Below, one piece after another: positions 1-5,472 of a stretch of DNA of 5,472 bases (within the stretch, counting starts at the first letter, position 1; every line of letters starts with the position of its first letter). Below the pieces are notes generated by a model that was not told where the DNA came from, ran no database searches, and saw only the letters and a list, made by a program, of their open reading frames with translations. This DNA is from an uncultured Eggerthellaceae bacterium (GTDB lineage Bacteria > Actinomycetota > Coriobacteriia > Coriobacteriales > Eggerthellaceae). Location of the stretch: assembly GCA_946631805.1 (NCBI GenBank), contig CAMPAJ010000129.1, forward strand, positions 1 to 5,472, in the 5' to 3' direction. Made by a program: the position numbers and the translations under genes.

Positions 1-1401
1 GAGCCACTCGGCGGGATAGGCTTCGCCAAGGCGCGTCGATGAAGCCGTCGCGATATAGTACGGTGCGCTCCCGTCATCAGTGTTGAACAAGTCCGCTCTC
101 AACTCGTTGAGCACAGTCTCGCGCCCTTCGGCTTCACAGCGAGCAGCAAGCTCGTCATAACGCGCAACGAACGAATCGCTCCGCGTGCCTTTCGACAAGT
201 GAAACCTATTGGCGAGCTCGTCGTATGCGAGGAAGGTGTCGAGCCGCTGCTGTACCTCGTCCTCTCCCCCGTGGGCGGGAATCAGATAGAACACGTCAGT
301 AACTTTGCCAAAGCCGCCTACCCCGCCTTGGCCGCGCGATTCCGTACCGGCAAGCTGGGTCGTATCGGTTTTCATGAAGCGGCCGAATGAACCTGGATAT
401 CCCGGCACCGACATCCAATCGTCGAGCTGGCGATTTGCAGGCCCCTCGCCCGCGTCAAACGCCCGGCGAAGCTTCAGGTACTCGCACTCGAGCATATAGA
501 AATCGGCATCGTAATCCCAGGGAATCAGATTTGCATGCCGTACAGCCCCGAGCAGCGTGCCATAGGCGAGCAAGTACTTGGCTCCAAGAGAGTGGCAAAG
601 CTCGTCGAACTCGAGCATGGATTCCAAAATATCGGCGTGAAGCTCGCGCGTCCGGGCTCCGGCAAGGTTGTCGAGGAGCTGTTGACCTTCATTGATGAGC
701 GTCAGCTCCTCGAGGCCCTTCGCGCTCGAAAGGTCGACGTCAAAACCAACGTCATCCACATGGCATTCCGCATGGGGCGTTCCGTCGGGTGCTATACGCA
801 CCCGCGCATCCAACGTGCCCGACTCGATTGCCCGCGCAGTTGCCGCGACGACGTCGTATGCCATGCTTTTCAGAAGAACGCAATTCGACCAGGGACGATT
901 TTTCTTTTCACGCGCATGGGGCTTGCCAGAGGTGGCGGCGCCCGGGCCCACGATCCGCAGAACGTAGTTCTTGCCACCCGTCATGTCGGGCACGGCAGCA
1001 GCTTGACCCCGCACGCAAAACCCTGCGAAGAACCCCTGGAAGCTACGCCCCGCATCCTTGCTCTTCTCGTTTGCGGGATTGCTTCTATACGTTTCGTCCC
1101 CAATGCACGCGGTCAAACAGATAGTTGCATCGGTCAGAACTGCATCGAGCGCCTGTTCAGCCTGATCGCATATATGCGCGACGTCGATTGCGCCCAGAAC
1201 GATGCCGTCGGGCCGAGACAACGTCATGGCCTCGACCCGAGCAAGCGTCCTTTCCTTAGAACGAGCCTCCACATAATACGTCGCCTCGTCCAGCAGGCGG
1301 ACGCCCTCGAACATAACCACCAGTAGCGAACCTTCCCAACGAAGTTCCCGCACACGGGCTTCGCTCACAAGCTGTTCGCTCCGGCATTCCCCCTCTAACA
1401 C
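1..1401 (-). CDS. LicD-family phosphotransferase, C-terminus cut by window edge
   Basis: The minus frame is open from a TAG at 1405-1407 to base 1, giving 467 codons from a GTG start. LicD proteins transfer a phosphorylated group from a CDP-activated donor (phosphocholine; ribitol phosphate in fukutin/FKRP) to a surface glycan. The LicD core starts near residue 265. It shows YGTLLGAVRH (280-289), IPWDYDAD (293-300) with D296, D298 and D300 as likely metal ligands, and VTDVFYLIP (367-375). The visible end, GEAYPAEWL, resembles the late LicD region, so only a modest C-terminal part should be missing. Residues 1-260 are an N-terminal region I do not recognise, probably beta-rich (LRWEGSLLVVMFEGV at 20-34). 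I chose GTG at 1401 because AAGGTG lies 9 nt upstream and it keeps that segment; ATG at 1314 is an alternative. The gene starts 55 bp after the GatZ-like gene, suggesting co-transcription. The acceptor glycan is unknown. Confidence 0.88.
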   Translation of the reverse strand, partial: MLEGECRSEQLVSEARVRELRWEGSLLVVMFEGVRLLDEATYYVEARSKERTLARVEAMTLSRPDGIVLGAIDVAHICDQAEQALDAVLTDATICLTACIGDETYRSNPANEKSKDAGRSFQGFFAGFCVRGQAAAVPDMTGGKNYVLRIVGPGAATSGKPHAREKKNRPWSNCVLLKSMAYDVVAATARAIESGTLDARVRIAPDGTPHAECHVDDVGFDVDLSSAKGLEELTLINEGQQLLDNLAGARTRELHADILESMLEFDELCHSLGAKYLLAYGTLLGAVRHANLIPWDYDADFYMLECEYLKLRRAFDAGEGPANRQLDDWMSVPGYPGSFGRFMKTDTTQLAGTESRGQGGVGGFGKVTDVFYLIPAHGGEDEVQQRLDTFLAYDELANRFHLSKGTRSDSFVARYDELAARCEAEGRETVLNELRADLFNTDDGSAPYYIATASSTRLGEAYPAEWL

Positions 1402-1410
1402 GTACTATCA

Positions 1411-1416
1411 CACCTT
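1411..1416 (-). promoter_or_regulatory. Ribosome binding site of the LicD-like gene
   Basis: AAGGTG on the minus strand lies 9 nt before GTG 1401. It matches the site used by the GatZ-like gene and supports the GTG start over ATG 1314, which is preceded only by GGTGG at very short spacing. Confidence 0.5.
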
Positions 1417-1456
1417 ACGACCCCAAATGCCTATGTATATGCCTACAGCCCGCCTC

Positions 1457-2767
1457 CTACAGCTCGCCGTTGTTCTTCGTCGCATACAGGTACCGATCCA
1501 CGCGGTCGCCGATCTTGTCGAGCAAGATGGCCTCGGCCTCGTTGGGCAGCTCGCCGGCGCGCACGCGGAAGTACTGCGTGGGCATGTACTGGCTGAGCAT
1601 GCACAGCGGGATTTCGCCATGCGAAAGGTTTTGAATCAACTTGTTACGCGCTGCGACGACCTCGGGCACGGCCATGTAATACCGGCAGCGGTCCAGGAAG
1701 CTGTACGCGCGCGAAATCGCCTGGTCCTCCAAGCTTCCTTGGTAGTAATTCTGCCAATGGACCGGATTGGCCAGCATCGCGTGCTCGAGCACCTCGCGGA
1801 AATGCGAGCGCTTCTCGGGCTGGCCGGCGTACACGCGGCACTCGATGCCCTCGAGCGCGAACAGCCCCTCGCGCATGCTGAACGTGAAGGCGGGCCCCAC
1901 CTTGAGGATGGCCACGCCGTCCTCGCACATGGCCTTGAGGTTCTCCTGCGTCTGGTAATCGGACGAATGGCCCTCGATGCAGAATGGCTTCGTACGCATG
2001 TAGGCTGCGAGCTCCTGAGCGGCTGCGCTGTCGTACTCGTTGAGCGCCCGTTCGTGGAATTCCACGCCCATCTCGACCACGAAGCCGACGACGCGTGCAA
2101 GCGCATCGCCCAACCCGCGCTCCGCGAACTCGCGCTCGTAGGCCTCGATCGTGCGCTTGCAGTTGGCCGGGTCGGTCACGCCCATCACGGCATCGTCGCT
2201 CGCATCGCCGCCCGGCACCGGCACCTCGCTGCCCAACACGTACACGGGCGGCTCGGCGCCCGGATGCTCGGCGGCATAACGCGCGAACTCGTCCTCGGCC
2301 GCAGCGCACAGCTCGGCACCGCGACGGGCGCACGTCTGCACGGCCAGGTCCTCATGCGGATCGTCGTCTCCCACGCGCATGCTCGTGTCCAGGTGGATCT
2401 TCGAGTAGCCGGCTGCCACGCACGAGCGCACGAGCGCCTCGGCCTTGGGCATGGCCTCCACTTCGGGCAAATCGCACCAGGGAAGCGGTCCCAGATGGTC
2501 GCCGCCCAGGATGACGCGGTTGCGGTCAAGGTCGATCTCGTCGGCGATGGCGTACACGAAGTCGCGGAAGTCGGCTGCCGTCATGCCGGTATAGCCGCCT
2601 TCGGGATTCACCTGGTTCGACGTGGACTCCACGAGCGCCACGGTGCGCGTCTTCTGCGCCTTCACGAGTACGGCCTTGACCACGTCGCGGTTTGCCGAGC
2701 AACACGAGAATATGCCTACCCCACGACCTGCTTTGTTACGTTGGACGATTTCCTGTACTGGATGCAT
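1457..2767 (-). CDS. GatZ/KbaZ/AgaZ-family protein (tagatose-bisphosphate aldolase subunit or ketose-6-P 4-epimerase)
   Basis: A 436-residue protein, close to the roughly 420-425 of E. coli GatZ and KbaZ. Family motifs appear in order: VESTSNQVNPEGGYTGM (46-62), ILGGDHLGP (86-94), KIHLDTSM (123-130), GSEVPVPGG (179-187), EGHSSDYQT (265-273) and LKVGPAFTF (288-296). The expected fold is a TIM barrel, cytosolic. In enterobacteria GatZ/KbaZ is the non-catalytic partner of the class II aldolase GatY/KbaY. From memory, other members of the family are tagatose-6-phosphate/fructose-6-phosphate 4-epimerases. No GatY-like gene, sugar kinase or PTS gene is in the window, so a stand-alone epimerase feeding the GatD-like enzyme is the better inference here. 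The start is ATG 2767, preceded by AAGGTG at 6-nt spacing; an in-frame TTG at 2848 would overlap the upstream gene and lacks a clear site. The gene lies 71 bp after the dehydrogenase and 55 bp before the LicD-like gene. Family is certain, activity is not. Confidence 0.92.
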   Translation of the reverse strand: MHPVQEIVQRNKAGRGVGIFSCCSANRDVVKAVLVKAQKTRTVALVESTSNQVNPEGGYTGMTAADFRDFVYAIADEIDLDRNRVILGGDHLGPLPWCDLPEVEAMPKAEALVRSCVAAGYSKIHLDTSMRVGDDDPHEDLAVQTCARRGAELCAAAEDEFARYAAEHPGAEPPVYVLGSEVPVPGGDASDDAVMGVTDPANCKRTIEAYEREFAERGLGDALARVVGFVVEMGVEFHERALNEYDSAAAQELAAYMRTKPFCIEGHSSDYQTQENLKAMCEDGVAILKVGPAFTFSMREGLFALEGIECRVYAGQPEKRSHFREVLEHAMLANPVHWQNYYQGSLEDQAISRAYSFLDRCRYYMAVPEVVAARNKLIQNLSHGEIPLCMLSQYMPTQYFRVRAGELPNEAEAILLDKIGDRVDRYLYATKNNGEL

Positions 2768-2773
2768 GTTCTG

Positions 2774-2779
2774 CACCTT
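2774..2779 (-). promoter_or_regulatory. Ribosome binding site of the GatZ-like gene
   Basis: AAGGTG on the minus strand lies 6 nt before ATG 2767. This fixes the start at the methionine of MHPVQEI rather than at the in-frame TTG at 2848. Confidence 0.6.
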
Positions 2780-2838
2780 TCCGCGAACGGGACTCGAGCG
2801 CCCAGCACGTTCGCTTTCTCCTGCGCCATCTAAGACGG

Positions 2839-3894
2839 CTATCTGCAATCGACCAGAATCTTACCCGATATCGAGTTACCATCGGCAAACTTCATCATTC
2901 CATCAGGAATCTCGTCGAGCGTGAACACGGAGTCGATCATTTCCTCCGTAACGTTGAGCACGCCCTCGGCGAACTGGCGCGCCACCTCGCTCCACTCGCG
3001 CCCCGGGAACGGGAAGCTGTACGACATCCAGCTGCCCGTGAGCTCGAGCTCCTTGCGGTTGAGGTTTTCCCATTCCCTCACGCTGAACTGCATGGGGCGC
3101 TTGGGGGTGCCCACCATGCACACGCGCGCCTTGTTGGCCGCGAGCTCGAAGGACTTGACCATCATGGCGTTGCTGCCCGACGTGTCGAACACGAAATCAA
3201 AGCCGCCGCGCCCGAGGGTCGCCAGAAGCTTTTGGTCCCACTCTGGTTCAGACGTGTTCACCAGATTGCAGACCCCGGCGCTGCATGCGGCATCGATGCG
3301 ACTCTGGCGGCGCGCAAGCGCCGTGACCTCAAGCCCCATAGCCTGCAAGATCTGCGCAGTGAAAATGCCGATCGTCCCGCATCCCACGACGACTGCCGTC
3401 GCATCCGGGCGCATGCGAGCGCGCACGCCCGCGAGCTCGATTGCATGTTGCGCGACCGTCGCCGGTTCAAAGAACGCCGCTTGCATGTCGTCAACCTCGT
3501 CGGCAACGGAAAACGCATTTGCAGCGGGTATGGCCACATACTGGGCGTAGGCGCCTGGACGACGCGACCCGATAAAGCTGTAGTGCTTGCACAGCGAGTA
3601 GTTCCCCGCTTTGCAATCCGCGCATTCCATGCACGGCACAAGCGGGATGCCCGAAACGCGCACGCCGACCATCGACGCATCGACGCCCTGCCCCACTTCC
3701 TCGACCATGCCCGAGAACTCATGACCCAAGATGAGCGGGAACGCATGCACGGCCCCGTCGAGGAAGCGCGGCACGTCCGACCCACACACGCCGCAGTACG
3801 CCACGCGCACGAGCACTTCGCCCGGCCCCGCCTGCGGCGTCGGTACCTCCTCGCACACCATCGTGCGCGTATCTTTCAGCAATGCTGCTTTCAT
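2839..3894 (-). CDS. GatD-like zinc-dependent alditol-phosphate dehydrogenase
   Basis: A 351-residue medium-chain dehydrogenase, nearest by eye to E. coli galactitol-1-phosphate 5-dehydrogenase (GatD), which interconverts galactitol-1-phosphate and tagatose-6-phosphate. Catalytic zinc ligands are C37 (in CGVCGSD), H58-E59 (in GHEFSG) and E143 (in FFEPATV). The structural zinc cysteines are C88, C91, C94 and C102. The dinucleotide fold has GCGTIG (171-176). IGSRR (108-112) and GSWMSYSFPFPG (287-298) closely match GatD and are stronger evidence than the generic dehydrogenase motifs. At the end of the second Rossmann strand, where NAD-dependent GatD has Asp, this protein has Ala194-Arg195-Arg196, which suggests NADP(H). 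It sits between a cytidylyltransferase and a GatZ-like gene, so it probably runs as a reductase supplying an alditol phosphate, like TarJ next to TarI. The start is ATG 3894 with GGAGGA just upstream. The exact substrate is inferred. Confidence 0.9.
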   Translation of the reverse strand: MKAALLKDTRTMVCEEVPTPQAGPGEVLVRVAYCGVCGSDVPRFLDGAVHAFPLILGHEFSGMVEEVGQGVDASMVGVRVSGIPLVPCMECADCKAGNYSLCKHYSFIGSRRPGAYAQYVAIPAANAFSVADEVDDMQAAFFEPATVAQHAIELAGVRARMRPDATAVVVGCGTIGIFTAQILQAMGLEVTALARRQSRIDAACSAGVCNLVNTSEPEWDQKLLATLGRGGFDFVFDTSGSNAMMVKSFELAANKARVCMVGTPKRPMQFSVREWENLNRKELELTGSWMSYSFPFPGREWSEVARQFAEGVLNVTEEMIDSVFTLDEIPDGMMKFADGNSISGKILVDCR

Positions 3895-3896
3895 GC

Positions 3897-3902
3897 TCCT
3901 CC
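3897..3902 (-). promoter_or_regulatory. Closely spaced ribosome binding site of the GatD-like gene
   Basis: GGAGGA on the minus strand ends only 2 nt before ATG 3894, tighter than the 6-9 nt used by its neighbours. The outer end of the inverted repeat (3911) lies 9 nt upstream, so a folded repeat in the mRNA would sit close to this site and could affect translation. Confidence 0.5.
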
Positions 3903-3910
3903 GATCTATG

Positions 3911-4064
3911 GTGAAAAAGGGTCGTAGCCATTTTCACATATACTGAACCTGCAACCCCTTACTCCACACGTTTCAAAAGGTTGGGCCTTTTCACTGCTCG
4001 CGAAACCGCGCATTAGGGTCGTGGCGTTTCGAACCATGTGAAATTGGCTACGACCCTTTTTCAC
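3911..4064. repeat. 154-bp element with 29-bp near-perfect inverted repeats
   Basis: The left arm 3911-3939 starts GTGAAAAAGGGTCGTAGCCA. The right arm 4036-4064 is its reverse complement with one mismatch in 29 positions (T versus A at arm position 21). The arms flank a 96-bp spacer with no gene. The element fills most of the 171-bp gap between the cytidylyltransferase and GatD-like genes; its right end is 1 base from the stop codon at 4066-4068. No target-site duplication is visible at the outer ends. Each arm is itself an imperfect hairpin: GTGAAAAAGG pairs with CCATTTTCAC at 9 of 10 positions around GTCGTAG. In the operon mRNA the two arms could pair into a long stem. Candidates are a REPIN-like pair of palindromic repeats, a miniature transposable element, or an invertible segment. 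The repeat itself is certain; its nature is not. Confidence 0.9.
3975..3991. repeat. Small hairpin inside the inverted-repeat spacer
   Basis: AAAAGG and CCTTTT pair around a 5-nt loop (TTGGG). The minus-strand reading begins GTGAAAAGG, close to the GTGAAAAAGG that begins both arms, so this may be a decayed third copy of the palindromic unit. It lacks a clean T tract, so I do not call it a terminator. Confidence 0.45.
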
Positions 4065-4065
4065 A

Positions 4066-4767
4066 TTACTTGAAGTAGTAGCCGTGGAACAGGCGCTCGT
4101 AGAGCGCCATGTCGTGGCGGTACGTGATCTTGAGGTTGACGAAATCCGTCGGCACGACCTTCATGGAAATGTCGTTGGCAAGCGCGATGGCGCCGGCGCT
4201 CGTGAACTGCTCGAGCTCCTCGTCGGCGGCTTGCTCGTATATGCGGTGAATCGGCCCGAACTTGAACAGCTCCGGCGACGCGCCCGAGACAATCTGCTCA
4301 CGCGGCACGACCTCGACCAAGTTGCCCTCCAGGTCGGTCTTGTACACGGTATCGAACTGCTTGCGGCCGAGCGTTGCCGCACCGTATTCCTGCGTCGCGC
4401 GGATGGCGTCGGCCGTTGAGCCCTCGTCCAAGTAGGGATGCGTGGCGTCGTGGATGAGCACGATGTCGTCGTCTTTTGCAAACTCCGCGAGCTTGCGCAG
4501 GCCGTTGCGCACCGACGCGGAGCGCGTGGAACCGCCGGCCACAGTGCCGGCGTATTTGGCGATCTTGAGCTTGGTGGCCCATTCGTCCGCATAATCAACC
4601 CAGTCCGCATGGCACACGAGCACGATGCTGTCGACCTTGTTGAACCGGTCGTACTTGTCCATGACGTACGAGAACACGGGCTGCCCCTCCACGTCGACGA
4701 ACTGCTTGGGAATGTTCGCGCCGAAGCGCGTCCCCGAGCCGCCCATCATAAGCAAGACGTGATTCAC
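4066..4767 (-). CDS. IspD/TarI-family cytidylyltransferase
   Basis: A 233-residue, probably cytosolic enzyme of the family that transfers CMP from CTP to a polyol phosphate: methylerythritol phosphate for IspD, ribitol phosphate for TarI and animal ISPD. Motifs: MGGSGTRFG (8-16) with IPKQF (19-23) for CTP binding, GGSTRSASVRNGL (78-90), DATHPY (107-112) and NLKIT with K213. The usual Arg in the DAxRP motif is His110, and the usual QTPQ/LTPQ stretch is SGASPE (161-166), so the polyol site differs from classical IspD. With a GatD-like reductase and a LicD-like transferase downstream, a CDP-alditol synthase is more likely than a housekeeping isoprenoid role. The start is GTG 4767, because AAGGAGG lies 6 nt upstream; the in-frame ATG at 4792-4794 would place that site inside the gene and add nine residues the family lacks. 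It is the first gene of the apparent operon. Confidence 0.88.
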   Translation of the reverse strand: MNHVLLMMGGSGTRFGANIPKQFVDVEGQPVFSYVMDKYDRFNKVDSIVLVCHADWVDYADEWATKLKIAKYAGTVAGGSTRSASVRNGLRKLAEFAKDDDIVLIHDATHPYLDEGSTADAIRATQEYGAATLGRKQFDTVYKTDLEGNLVEVVPREQIVSGASPELFKFGPIHRIYEQAADEELEQFTSAGAIALANDISMKVVPTDFVNLKITYRHDMALYERLFHGYYFK

Positions 4768-4773
4768 GCGATT

Positions 4774-4780
4774 CCTCCTT
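4774..4780 (-). promoter_or_regulatory. Ribosome binding site of the cytidylyltransferase gene
   Basis: A full AAGGAGG on the minus strand lies 6 nt before GTG 4767. It decides the GTG start over the upstream ATG at 4792-4794. Confidence 0.75.
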
Positions 4781-4800
4781 GCTTGAGATAACATACATTG

Positions 4801-4842
4801 ACTATAATAGCCATGAATTAACGCATTCCCTCGAATGCGTTA
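4801..4842 (-). promoter_or_regulatory. Candidate operon promoter with 24-bp palindromic operator
   Basis: On the minus strand TATTAT (4804-4809) resembles a -10 box 36 bp before the GTG start. No good -35 box stands 17 bp upstream. Instead a perfect palindrome, TAACGCATTC and GAATGCGTTA around CCTC (4819-4842), overlaps that position. This arrangement fits a regulator-controlled promoter for the cassette. The plus strand of the same bases reads TATAAT (4803-4808), so the -10 call is not strand-specific. The palindrome is certain, the promoter is tentative. Confidence 0.4.
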
Positions 4843-4876
4843 CCGTATTCCTAAACCTATATGACCTGCTCATAGA

Positions 4877-4897
4877 GGTGTCTCACCATGAGACACC
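4877..4897. repeat. Perfect 9-bp-arm hairpin
   Basis: GGTGTCTCA and TGAGACACC are exact reverse complements around a 3-nt CCA spacer. There is no adjacent T tract. It could be an operator or a decayed mobile-element end; nothing in the sequence decides this. Confidence 0.7.
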
Positions 4898-4909
4898 CGA
4901 CATAGCGAA

Positions 4910-4922
4910 AGGAACTGTTCCT
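4910..4922. repeat. 13-bp palindrome AGGAAC-T-GTTCCT
   Basis: A perfect 6-bp-arm palindrome around a central T. Its layout (GGAACTGTTCC) resembles the core of the larger palindrome at 5014-5046 (GGGGACTGTCCCC), so the two may be related repeat units. Confidence 0.6.
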
Positions 4923-4966
4923 ATTACTTTTCTGTCCCGTTATTTGTACATTACAGTATGTAAGGT

Positions 4967-4995
4967 TGAGTCATCTAACCTCGTTAGATGACTCA
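4967..4995 (+). terminator. Terminator-like hairpin
   Basis: TGAGTCATCTAAC and GTTAGATGACTCA form a perfect 13-bp stem with loop CTC, followed on the plus strand by TTATTATT. The T-rich side suits a plus-strand transcript, but no plus-strand gene is visible upstream. For the minus-strand recombinase transcript the stem lacks a T tract. It may instead be a regulatory or mobile-element palindrome. Confidence 0.35.
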
Positions 4996-5013
4996 TTATT
5001 ATTGGACAACTAA

Positions 5014-5046
5014 ACCTGACAATGGGGACTGTCCCCATTGTCAGGT
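5014..5046. repeat. 33-bp perfect palindrome at the recombinase stop
   Basis: ACCTGACAATGGGGAC (5014-5029) and GTCCCCATTGTCAGGT (5031-5046) are exact reverse complements around a single T at 5030. The last base of the recombinase TGA (5046-5048) is inside it. In RNA it would form a very stable stem and could end the recombinase transcript, although the following minus-strand TTTAGTTG is a weak T tract. The exact coincidence with an early stop also suggests an insertion or repeat-element boundary. Confidence 0.9.
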
Positions 5047-5472
5047 CAGGCTAGCAGTTCCTGGACAGTGGTGAAATCAGCTTTGGAAACAAGCGGCTCG
5101 TGCGCATCGGGTGTGCGAGCCCACTGCTCGGGCGGCACGCTCATGTATTGCTTCGTCCGCCAGCTAGCCTTTCGTGTTTTACCCTGCGCGAGCAATCCCG
5201 TGTATATATCGTCCCTGAGTATGCGCAGCACGGTCTGCGCATGCCACTTCGGCGGCTTAGCCGAGTCGAAGTTCGTACGGTAATTCTGCCCGAGGCGTCG
5301 CCTATGGGCAGAAGGAGGCTCGATTCCTTCGCCGTTGAGCTCCCGTGCAATCCGCGATGCGGGCTTTCCGCCTATGAAATCGGCGAATATGCGCACGACG
5401 ACGGCCGCGGCATCGGCGTCCACAACGAGCTTGTGCTTGTCCTGCGGGTCCTTGACGTAACCGTACGGCGCG
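5046..5472 (-). CDS. Serine site-specific recombinase, C-terminal end only, apparently truncated
   Basis: The frame enters from the right edge and gives 141 residues before TGA 5046-5048. It matches the recombinase domain that follows the catalytic resolvase domain in large serine recombinases: APYGYVKD (1-8), a VDADAAAVVVRIFADFIGG-type helix (17-35), IARELNGEGIEPP (41-53), W76 with VLRILRDDIYTG (81-92), and HEPLVSKADFTTVQELL (124-140). These enzymes cut and rejoin DNA at attachment or inversion sites through a catalytic serine, which would lie outside the window. Family members normally continue past the VQELL stretch into a zinc-ribbon and coiled-coil region of one to two hundred residues or more. 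Here the protein ends one residue later, at the palindrome, so it is probably a truncated remnant. The N-terminus cannot be judged. Confidence 0.88.
   Translation of the reverse strand, partial: APYGYVKDPQDKHKLVVDADAAAVVVRIFADFIGGKPASRIARELNGEGIEPPSAHRRRLGQNYRTNFDSAKPPKWHAQTVLRILRDDIYTGLLAQGKTRKASWRTKQYMSVPPEQWARTPDAHEPLVSKADFTTVQELLA

Follow-up and report, generated by a model that had tools for sequence, protein, structure and literature searches.

A candidate CDP-galactitol cassette pairing an IspD-family cytidylyltransferase with GatZ and GatD-like proteins in an uncultured Eggerthellaceae bacterium

Why would a gene for an IspD-family cytidylyltransferase stand next to relatives of the galactitol genes gatD and gatZ and a gene for a LicD-domain protein? 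This arrangement is found on a 5,472-nucleotide stretch of DNA from an uncultured Eggerthellaceae bacterium (Actinomycetota; GenBank assembly GCA_946631805.1, contig CAMPAJ010000129.1, positions 1 to 5,472), which is called the window here at its full length. It carries four co-oriented minus-strand genes in the order IspD, GatD-like, GatZ, LicD (Table 1). An earlier reading made from the letters of the DNA alone (the sequence-only reading) had named these four families as adjoining on one strand, and Pfam matches bear this out for each of them. We propose, with a probability of about 0.7, that the cassette makes cytidine diphosphate (CDP)-galactitol for the phospho-galactitol units of a teichoic-acid-like or capsule-like surface polymer.

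In the proposed pathway, GatZ would convert fructose-6-phosphate to tagatose-6-phosphate, the GatD-like enzyme, acting as a reductase that probably uses NADPH, would turn this into galactitol-1-phosphate, and the IspD-type enzyme would join galactitol-1-phosphate with cytidine triphosphate (CTP) to give CDP-galactitol. A phosphotransferase (LicD in the window; LicD and/or a TagF/TarL-like glycerophosphotransferase elsewhere) would then attach phospho-galactitol to a glycan, and at some loci an ATP-binding cassette (ABC) exporter would carry this glycan out. Archaea and one clostridial genome have a short-chain dehydrogenase/reductase (SDR) in the place of GatD, and there the addition of CTP may come before the reduction, with CDP-6-tagatose as the compound that is reduced. 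The proposal joins what was computed here (families, linkage, residue conservation, the IspD clade, the lack of a galactitol phosphotransferase system (PTS) IIC component, the lack of an aldolase beside the cassette, and the surface-polymer context) to substrates, a product, a step order and an acceptor that we infer. Papers are cited by PubMed Central (PMC) number for the passages that were consulted.

Recurrence of the IspD-GatZ neighbourhood

The forward search took an alignment of 23 GatZs (A1) to a genome collection holding one genome per species, and the best 80 of at least 588 confirmed GatZ stretches were kept, a sample that leans towards the window. Reading frames at the loci were scanned with the window's four proteins and then with profiles. 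A cassette-type IspD adjoins GatZ at 26 of these best 80 loci, and a recurrence on this scale makes the adjacency more than chance. The accompanying reductase is of the GatD type in 24 of the 26 and an SDR in the other two. The organisms include Slackia exigua, Parvibacter, Ruminococcus, Lachnospiraceae, Oscillospiraceae, Erysipelotrichaceae, Bacilli and Methanobrevibacter, the 26 genomes being mostly metagenome-assembled. Most coriobacterial loci follow the order IspD-GatD-GatZ and most others IspD-GatZ-GatD, a variation that argues for function over a single inherited arrangement.

The reverse search started from IspD with a 24-row alignment (A2). A profile of all 27 cassette rows gave a lowest cassette score of 340 bits and a highest other score of 157, and the seven coriobacterial rows still reached 310-358 bits when held out. 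In the class of Slackia exigua, 12 of 396 genomes carry a cassette IspD, all at 349 bits or more, with GatD adjoining in 12/12 and GatZ in 11/12; in the twelfth (G037) the contig stops inside GatD, and no GatZ was found in its 0.9-Mb genome. In the Lachnospiraceae class two of 391 genomes score at least 322 bits, and each has GatZ and GatD; the Bacilli class gave one strong match in 346 genomes, with GatZ present. In the class of Methanobrevibacter, six of 151 genomes have a cassette IspD with GatZ adjoining in 6/6; of the six short loci, three show the SDR, which a fourth genome (G022) has in its longer locus L067. Matches at 157-169 bits (four of six in the Lachnospiraceae class and four of five in the Bacilli class), whose short loci show no GatZ, were dropped as non-cassette because cassette rows score at least 340 bits, or about 310 and up when held out. 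The cassette occurs seldom but consistently, and a single binning error does not account for the archaeal form. The sequence-only reading had suggested looking for the same families side by side in other genomes, and had held that a neighbourhood not conserved elsewhere would count against it; the families were found together from the GatZ side and from the IspD side alike.

One further case comes from Escherichia coli. A protein search of 72,556 plasmids returned a single record with a cassette-type IspD, an E. coli plasmid (L149; gene order in Table 1), and a search of 5,426 E. coli genomes for near-identical sequence gave one match. The plasmid IspD joins the cassette clade described below with a support of 99, on a long branch of a quick tree. 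Its GatZ is enterobacterial and passes the GatZ equivalog cut-off, while its dehydrogenase, at 548.6 bits, falls 1.4 bits short of the GatD cut-off of 550, still has Asp at the end of the second Rossmann strand, and shares 86% identity with the GatD of an E. coli operon for the galactitol PTS (L150). Judged by these matches, the plasmid pairs a near-orthologue of a known galactitol-1-phosphate dehydrogenase with the cassette type of IspD.

Cytidylyltransferase, GatZ and reductase

The best NCBIfam models for the window's IspD, GatD and GatZ are the families that had been named from the letters alone, and all three proteins score below the curated cut-offs, so by the NCBIfam standard they are relatives of these families and not members. 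For IspD, a PF01128 match of 117.1 bits (cut-off 27) goes with 144.7 bits against the 181.3 required by TIGR00453, the model for membership in the methylerythritol phosphate (MEP) pathway, and with 123.2 of 166 bits for NF001183. A tree built from 62 IspD-family proteins of the window and the cassette genomes places all 27 members from cassettes in one clade (100/99), which stands apart from the IspDs linked to IspF and from those paired with TarJ-like reductases, and joins neither group. By this tree, the CYTIDYLYLTRANSFERASE of the cassette is its own kind within the IspD family.

Seven residues common to the family are kept in the cassette IspDs (R23, K30, D116, D148, T149, R165 and K222, in the 242-aa numbering from an ATG at 4794). 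At other positions, the cassette rows are invariant for one residue and 12 IspF-linked and seven TarI-like rows agree on another: M17 (Ala in the others), H119 (Arg), A172-S173 (Gln-Thr), E175 (Gln) and S199 (Asp); T118, numbered from the same ATG, is likewise invariant in the cassette rows. The GTG start at 4767, which the sequence-only reading had taken as the end of the cassette, is correct and matches a 233-aa relative (P0001).

TarJ is a zinc-dependent medium-chain dehydrogenase/reductase (MDR), and in its pathway the reduction precedes CTP transfer. A plain TarIJ reading, in which the locus would make CDP-ribitol, was set aside: the cassette IspD branches apart from TarI-like rows and the reductase from TarJ-like rows, where "TarI-like" and "TarJ-like" denote an IspD-MDR pair without GatZ, since neither tree contained a TarI or TarJ identified by name. 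The NF001183 score given above, below its cut-off, belongs to the same test. Of the 26 cassette genomes, eight (G004, G005, G007, G021, G022, G024, G025 and G026) have at another place an IspD beside a TarJ-like reductase and so possess two parallel kits, only one of which includes GatZ and GatD (or the SDR). In four of the eight, at L098, L099, L100 and L103, from Ruminococcus and a Ruminococcaceae metagenome-assembled genome that also have the GatZ cassette, a LicD gene was observed in front of the IspD-TarJ-like pair. At L104 (in G010), the genes for an ABC-2 permease, an ABC ATPase, an IspD that groups with the TarI-like ones and a glycerophosphotransferase follow one another, with no reductase next to the IspD. 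The IspD at L113 is sister to the cassette clade and lies beside a long-branched GatD-like reductase, with no GatZ in the 5.6-kb locus; this is perhaps a CDP-hexitol kit that starts from fructose-6-phosphate.

The window's GatZ has a PF08013 match of 530 bits, is as long as its nearest relatives, and aligns to the solved chain 2fiq over residues 11-434; against the NCBIfam agaZ/gatZ model it scores 455.9 bits (cut-off 568.8). For GatZ/KbaZ, a C4 epimerase activity between fructose-6-phosphate and tagatose-6-phosphate is supported, and Cys20, Glu44, Asp87, His88, Glu171, His257 and Lys279 of the E. coli protein are given as metal-binding and catalytic residues (PMC11907403). All seven are present in the window as C28, E52, D95, H96, E186, H272 and K294 (441-aa numbering), and they are kept in 33/33 cassette GatZs. 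The cassette GatZ is probably a C4 epimerase of this kind. Matches to GatZ were also seen in phages.

On a quick tree of GatZs, those adjacent to IspD form two separate groups, one of seven coriobacterial sequences and one of 20 others. Taken together with the single IspD clade and the enterobacterial GatZ of the plasmid, this branching indicates that the same IspD lineage is paired with different GatZs. A wider claim, which we judge to stand at even odds, is that a CDP-galactitol pathway has been assembled repeatedly from one cytidylyltransferase lineage and GatZs of at least three origins, and that it provides phospho-galactitol polymers for the cell surfaces of gut Actinomycetota and Bacillota, methanogens of the Methanobrevibacter class (with the SDR) and rare plasmid-bearing E. 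coli.

Among solved structures, the GatD-like protein of the window matches best to 4a2c, a galactitol-1-phosphate 5-dehydrogenase (201 bits), and it scores 246.2 bits against NF007642 (cut-off 550); its nearest solved chain and its kept zinc ligands place it with GatD. Most cassette reductases lie among the GatDs, on a long and fully supported branch away from the TarJ-like ones, in a quick tree that carries a long-branch warning. The zinc-ligand cysteines and His58-Glu59 are kept in 32/32 cassette relatives and Glu143 in 31/32. The end of the second Rossmann strand is Asp in 19/19 non-cassette GatDs, the usual mark of NAD use, and acidic in 11 of 33 cassette GatDs (the window included). Arg195 occurs in 21 of the same 33 and in none of the 19 others, and in the window Ala194-Arg195 replaces the acidic residue. 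This pattern suggests NADPH and hence the synthetic direction, as a pointer and not a statistical test, there being four to five changes on the tree and only one or two independent contrasts with the cassette label. The cassette GatD thus probably runs in reverse.

An extended SDR replaces GatD in a clostridial locus (L053) and in Methanobrevibacter (L067), the two proteins being 61% identical, and relatives of it occur in three more archaeal loci (L151, L152 and L154). The L053 protein matches 8v4g/8v4h, a putative nucleotide sugar dehydratase that we take to be the Campylobacter jejuni enzyme, at 126 bits, with UDP-glucuronate decarboxylases scoring higher (144 bits). In the window, the reductase is an MDR and does not follow the CDP-hexitol synthase pattern of PF01128 beside a PF01370 SDR.

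Surface-polymer genes and the surroundings of the cassette

The neighbours of the cassette are those of surface-polymer loci. LicD is found at 15/26 cassette loci, a glycerophosphotransferase of the PF04464 type (Glyphos_transf) at 14/26 and either of them at 22/26, while each is at 0/54 non-cassette GatZ loci, in scans whose transferase profiles were built from cassette-locus proteins, which favours the cassette side. An FGGY kinase is at 0/26 cassette loci and 18/54 others, and a sugar permease at 0/26 and 17/54. An ABC-2 permease (7/26 versus 0/54) was set aside as evidence, one of its three seed proteins having no Pfam match. At L140, which shares 85% (IspD), 78% (GatZ) and 66% (GatD) identity with the window, an ABC-transporter ATPase gene precedes the cassette, and GT2 and glycerophosphotransferase genes follow it.

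The window's LicD has a PF04991 match of 51 bits (cut-off 22.6; 2.6e-13) and a weak match to FKRP (6kaj). At least eight relatives are among the matches listed, three close ones being 723-797 aa long, and P0241 is 100% identical to the window's LicD over 88% of it. The conserved aspartates of the family (D293, D295 and D297 in the numbering of P0242, a 778-aa relative) are invariant in the 18 rows of alignment A3, P0241 included, which places the protein in LicD. The records of P0242 and of P0001, the nearest IspD, both have 23,648 bases as their longest contig, so the two genes are probably linked in their genome too.

Around the cassette of Slackia exigua (Table 1) we observed choline-binding proteins and a fusion resembling a nucleotidyltransferase with a choline kinase. 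These neighbours suggest phosphocholine-decorated polymers, and the LicD there could also move phosphocholine. In proteins of L002, L005 and L144, the region ahead of the LicD domain looks, on inspecting the alignment by eye, like a degenerate second copy of that domain, and these proteins may be tandem LicDs.

Two repeats lie near the cassette in the window. One is a pair of arms that occupies most of the IspD-GatD gap and looks like a small inserted element, because this gap is about 60 bases or less in coriobacterial relatives with the same gene order. No match was found for its 17-base pattern in 146 loci, for its 29-base arm in viral contigs or for the whole stretch in plasmids. An Rfam search gave no match. 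The other is a perfect inverted repeat adjoining a serine-recombinase fragment, and the two together suggest a mobile-element border upstream of the cassette.

Table 1. Features of the window, with those of other loci named in the text.
Feature	Location	Strand	Length	Family or remark
Cassette-type IspD-family cytidylyltransferase	window 4066..4767	minus	233 aa	PF01128; GTG start
GatD-like zinc MDR dehydrogenase	window 2839..3894	minus	351 aa	ADH_N/ADH_zinc_N
GatZ-family protein	window 1457..2767	minus	436 aa	PF08013; from ATG at 2767
LicD-domain protein	window 1..1401	minus	first 467 residues	PF04991; C-terminus beyond the window
Serine-recombinase fragment	window 5046-5471			PF07508; upstream of the cassette
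Repeat pair in the IspD-GatD gap	window 3911-4064		two 29-base arms	97% complementary; 96 bases apart
Perfect inverted repeat	window 5014-5046		16-base arms	1 base apart
Extended SDR (Clostridia)	L053:10294-11364
Extended SDR (Methanobrevibacter)	L067:11321-12376
Choline-related genes (Slackia exigua)	L005:18345-20186 and neighbours
Putative tandem LicD proteins	L002:11355-13106; L005:11281-13149; L144:10476-12395
E. coli plasmid locus L149	NZ_JBTZOT010000002.1			order: glycerophosphotransferase, IspD, insertion sequence (IS) 1 remnant, gatZ, IS1 remnant, GatY-type aldolase, zinc dehydrogenase

Alternative readings and significance

Several observations weigh against the CDP-galactitol proposal. 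The seven GatZ residues are kept equally in 54/54 non-cassette GatZs, so they speak for competence and not for specialisation. GatZ also occurs without a tie to IspD: among 149 Slackia-class genomes there are five strong matches, namely the S. exigua cassette, three copies with no IspD nearby (G034, G046 and G058) and one at a contig end (G052), the copy in G034 having SIS-domain and sugar-kinase-like genes as neighbours. The cofactor shift is incomplete, given the cassette GatDs that are still acidic. The E. coli plasmid also carries GatY, and IS1 remnants part its IspD from the gat genes, so that its set is possibly a chance assembly. Neither LicD nor Glyphos_transf is seen at L025, L040, L042 and L062; for the first three, a second IspD lies elsewhere in the genome, and in G010, the one examined, exporter and glycerophosphotransferase genes accompany it. 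P0242 is only 17-20% identical to 15 other aligned LicDs, 13 of them from cassette loci; the window's LicD is a divergent type, and its proposed action as transferase for this donor is the least secure part of the pathway. At L140, LicD lies upstream and carries a GDPD domain. The Fisher value for the transferases (5.5e-16) is descriptive only, since the loci, controls included, are related to one another and are not independent tests. A literature search of partial coverage found no galactitol-phosphate polymer.

Could these genes serve a known purpose instead? That the IspD-type enzyme is an ordinary MEP enzyme, beside catabolic genes by chance, is a reading to which we give next to no credence. 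It draws on the PF01128 and TIGR00453 matches, on public annotation, which calls such genes MEP cytidylyltransferases, and on four genomes (G007, G010, G015 and G016) that have IspF and in which no IspD of the IspF-linked type was found, their IspDs, apart from fragments, being that of the cassette and another that falls in the TarI-like group; these four genomes count against our proposal as well. The TIGR00453 score below its cut-off and the separate clade argue otherwise, as do a second IspD within 150 bases of IspF in 12/26 cassette genomes and four of the 26 in which IspF was not found; in G013 and G019, the cassette IspD is the sole PF01128 match, although the genomes may be incomplete. 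The sequence-only reading had named an enzyme restricted to methylerythritol phosphate as one way in which it could fail, and the clade and the genomes with no IspF found speak against that outcome. A catabolic galactitol or tagatose operon, with GatZ as an aldolase subunit, is also very improbable. E. coli does have GatZ and GatD within a galactitol PTS operon (L150), and the FGGY kinases and sugar permeases of non-cassette GatZ loci fit such a role. They are missing from the cassette loci, where surface-polymer genes are found instead. The galactitol PTS IIC component (EIIC-GAT) is in 0/26 cassette genomes (the window's own genome is not among them). The class II aldolase PF01116, the family of GatY, is absent in 8/26, among them all six of the coriobacterial genomes; the other 18 have one such gene each, which may be Fba or GatY, always on another contig than the cassette IspD. 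Across the 26 genomes, the cassette does not belong to a galactitol catabolic operon with GatY and the galactitol PTS, and the objection, raised with the first reading, that the complete locus might be an uptake operon of this sort falls away.

We regard it as improbable that the activated alditol is a different one (glucitol, mannitol or a pentitol) and that GatZ carries out some other epimerisation. Pathways to CDP-glucitol, CDP-mannitol, CDP-arabinitol and CDP-ribitol exist, and eight of the 26 genomes hold the IspD-TarJ-like pair; yet going from fructose-6-phosphate to glucitol or mannitol needs no epimerase, while GatZ stands beside the cassette IspD in nearly all Slackia-class and all Methanobrevibacter-class cases, and the reductases of the cassette fall with GatD, at a distance from the TarJ-like branch. 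A less remote alternative, unlikely in our judgement, keeps the genes in one pathway and changes the order: IspD would add CTP to tagatose-6-phosphate, and the GatD-like enzyme or the SDR would then reduce CDP-6-tagatose to CDP-galactitol or to its C2 epimer, CDP-talitol. GatD and SDR reductases alike are partnered by IspDs of one clade, which is simplest with a ketose phosphate as the IspD substrate; the archaeal and L053 SDR variants fit this order, as does the L053 match to 8v4g/8v4h, though UDP-glucuronate decarboxylases score higher. Against it, 24/26 loci have a GatD-type reductase, the plasmid one closely resembles a galactitol-operon GatD, and GatD acts on free sugar phosphates. Known pathways point both ways: CDP-6-glucitol and CDP-mannitol are made with CTP transfer first, a further point against our proposal in that galactitol-1-phosphate may not be an IspD substrate, and in CDP-ribitol synthesis the reduction comes first (PMC10918830). 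The pathway drawn by the sequence-only reading, which ran through galactitol-1-phosphate to LicD, is supported by the conserved families, by the literature on GatZ as an epimerase and by the failure of the objections named with it. Within it, the reduction may come after CTP transfer, and LicD is at only 15/26 cassette loci.

Among known systems, the closest are HS5.18/HS5.17 of C. jejuni HS:5 (CDP-6-D-glucitol) and Mnp1/Mnp2 of Streptococcus pneumoniae 35A (CDP-mannitol), in which an IspD-family enzyme and a reductase using NADPH likewise make a CDP-hexitol for a surface polysaccharide (PMC10918830). HS5.18 makes CDP-6-fructose from fructose-6-phosphate, with other donors, glucitol-6-phosphate included, below 1%, and an SDR then reduces it; Mnp1/Mnp2 also proceed by CTP transfer and then reduction (PMC10918830). 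These systems start from fructose-6-phosphate without an epimerase and use an SDR after CTP transfer (PMC10918830), whereas the window has GatZ and a GatD-type MDR. The SDR variant of the archaea and L053 combines the same two Pfam families as HS5.18/HS5.17 and Mnp1/Mnp2. AbpA, to our knowledge, works in a system with no GatZ or GatD. It belongs to CDP-arabinitol synthesis in pneumococcal serogroup 24, which also provides a CDP-alditol for a surface polymer, in that case a pentitol (PMC10118250). An IspD-family enzyme is shared with TarI/TarJ and with animal ISPD, whose partners FKTN/FKRP bring in a LicD-domain transferase (PMC4873967). TarI/TarJ differ in having a pentitol and no epimerase, and in the clade of the IspD and the branch of the reductase, as judged from the TarI-like and TarJ-like rows. 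The cassette GatZ shares its family and all seven active-site residues with E. coli GatZ/KbaZ and with an Agrobacterium enzyme acting on fructose-6-phosphate and tagatose-6-phosphate (PMC11907403); there the context is galactitol use or tagatose production, and here it is linkage to a cytidylyltransferase.

Routes to CDP-ribitol, CDP-mannitol, CDP-glucitol and CDP-arabinitol are known. The literature search, partial in coverage, found no paper on CDP-galactitol, tagatose-6-phosphate 4-epimerase or galactitol phosphate; galactitol and tagatose do not occur in the consulted main text of the CDP-hexitol paper (PMC10918830), and the galactitol of PMC5116648 is, in the part consulted, a derivative from methylation analysis. 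What appears to be new here is a CDP-alditol cassette that includes a C4 epimerase as well and has a reductase of the GatD type. Under the CDP-galactitol reading, genes that currently carry isoprenoid or galactitol-degradation labels become a biosynthetic set open to testing, and gut microbes would possess an activated building block and a surface-polymer unit that are both new. If it is true, galactitol joins the short list of CDP-activated alditols, and the presence of the cassette in methanogens would extend CDP-alditol chemistry to archaeal envelopes.

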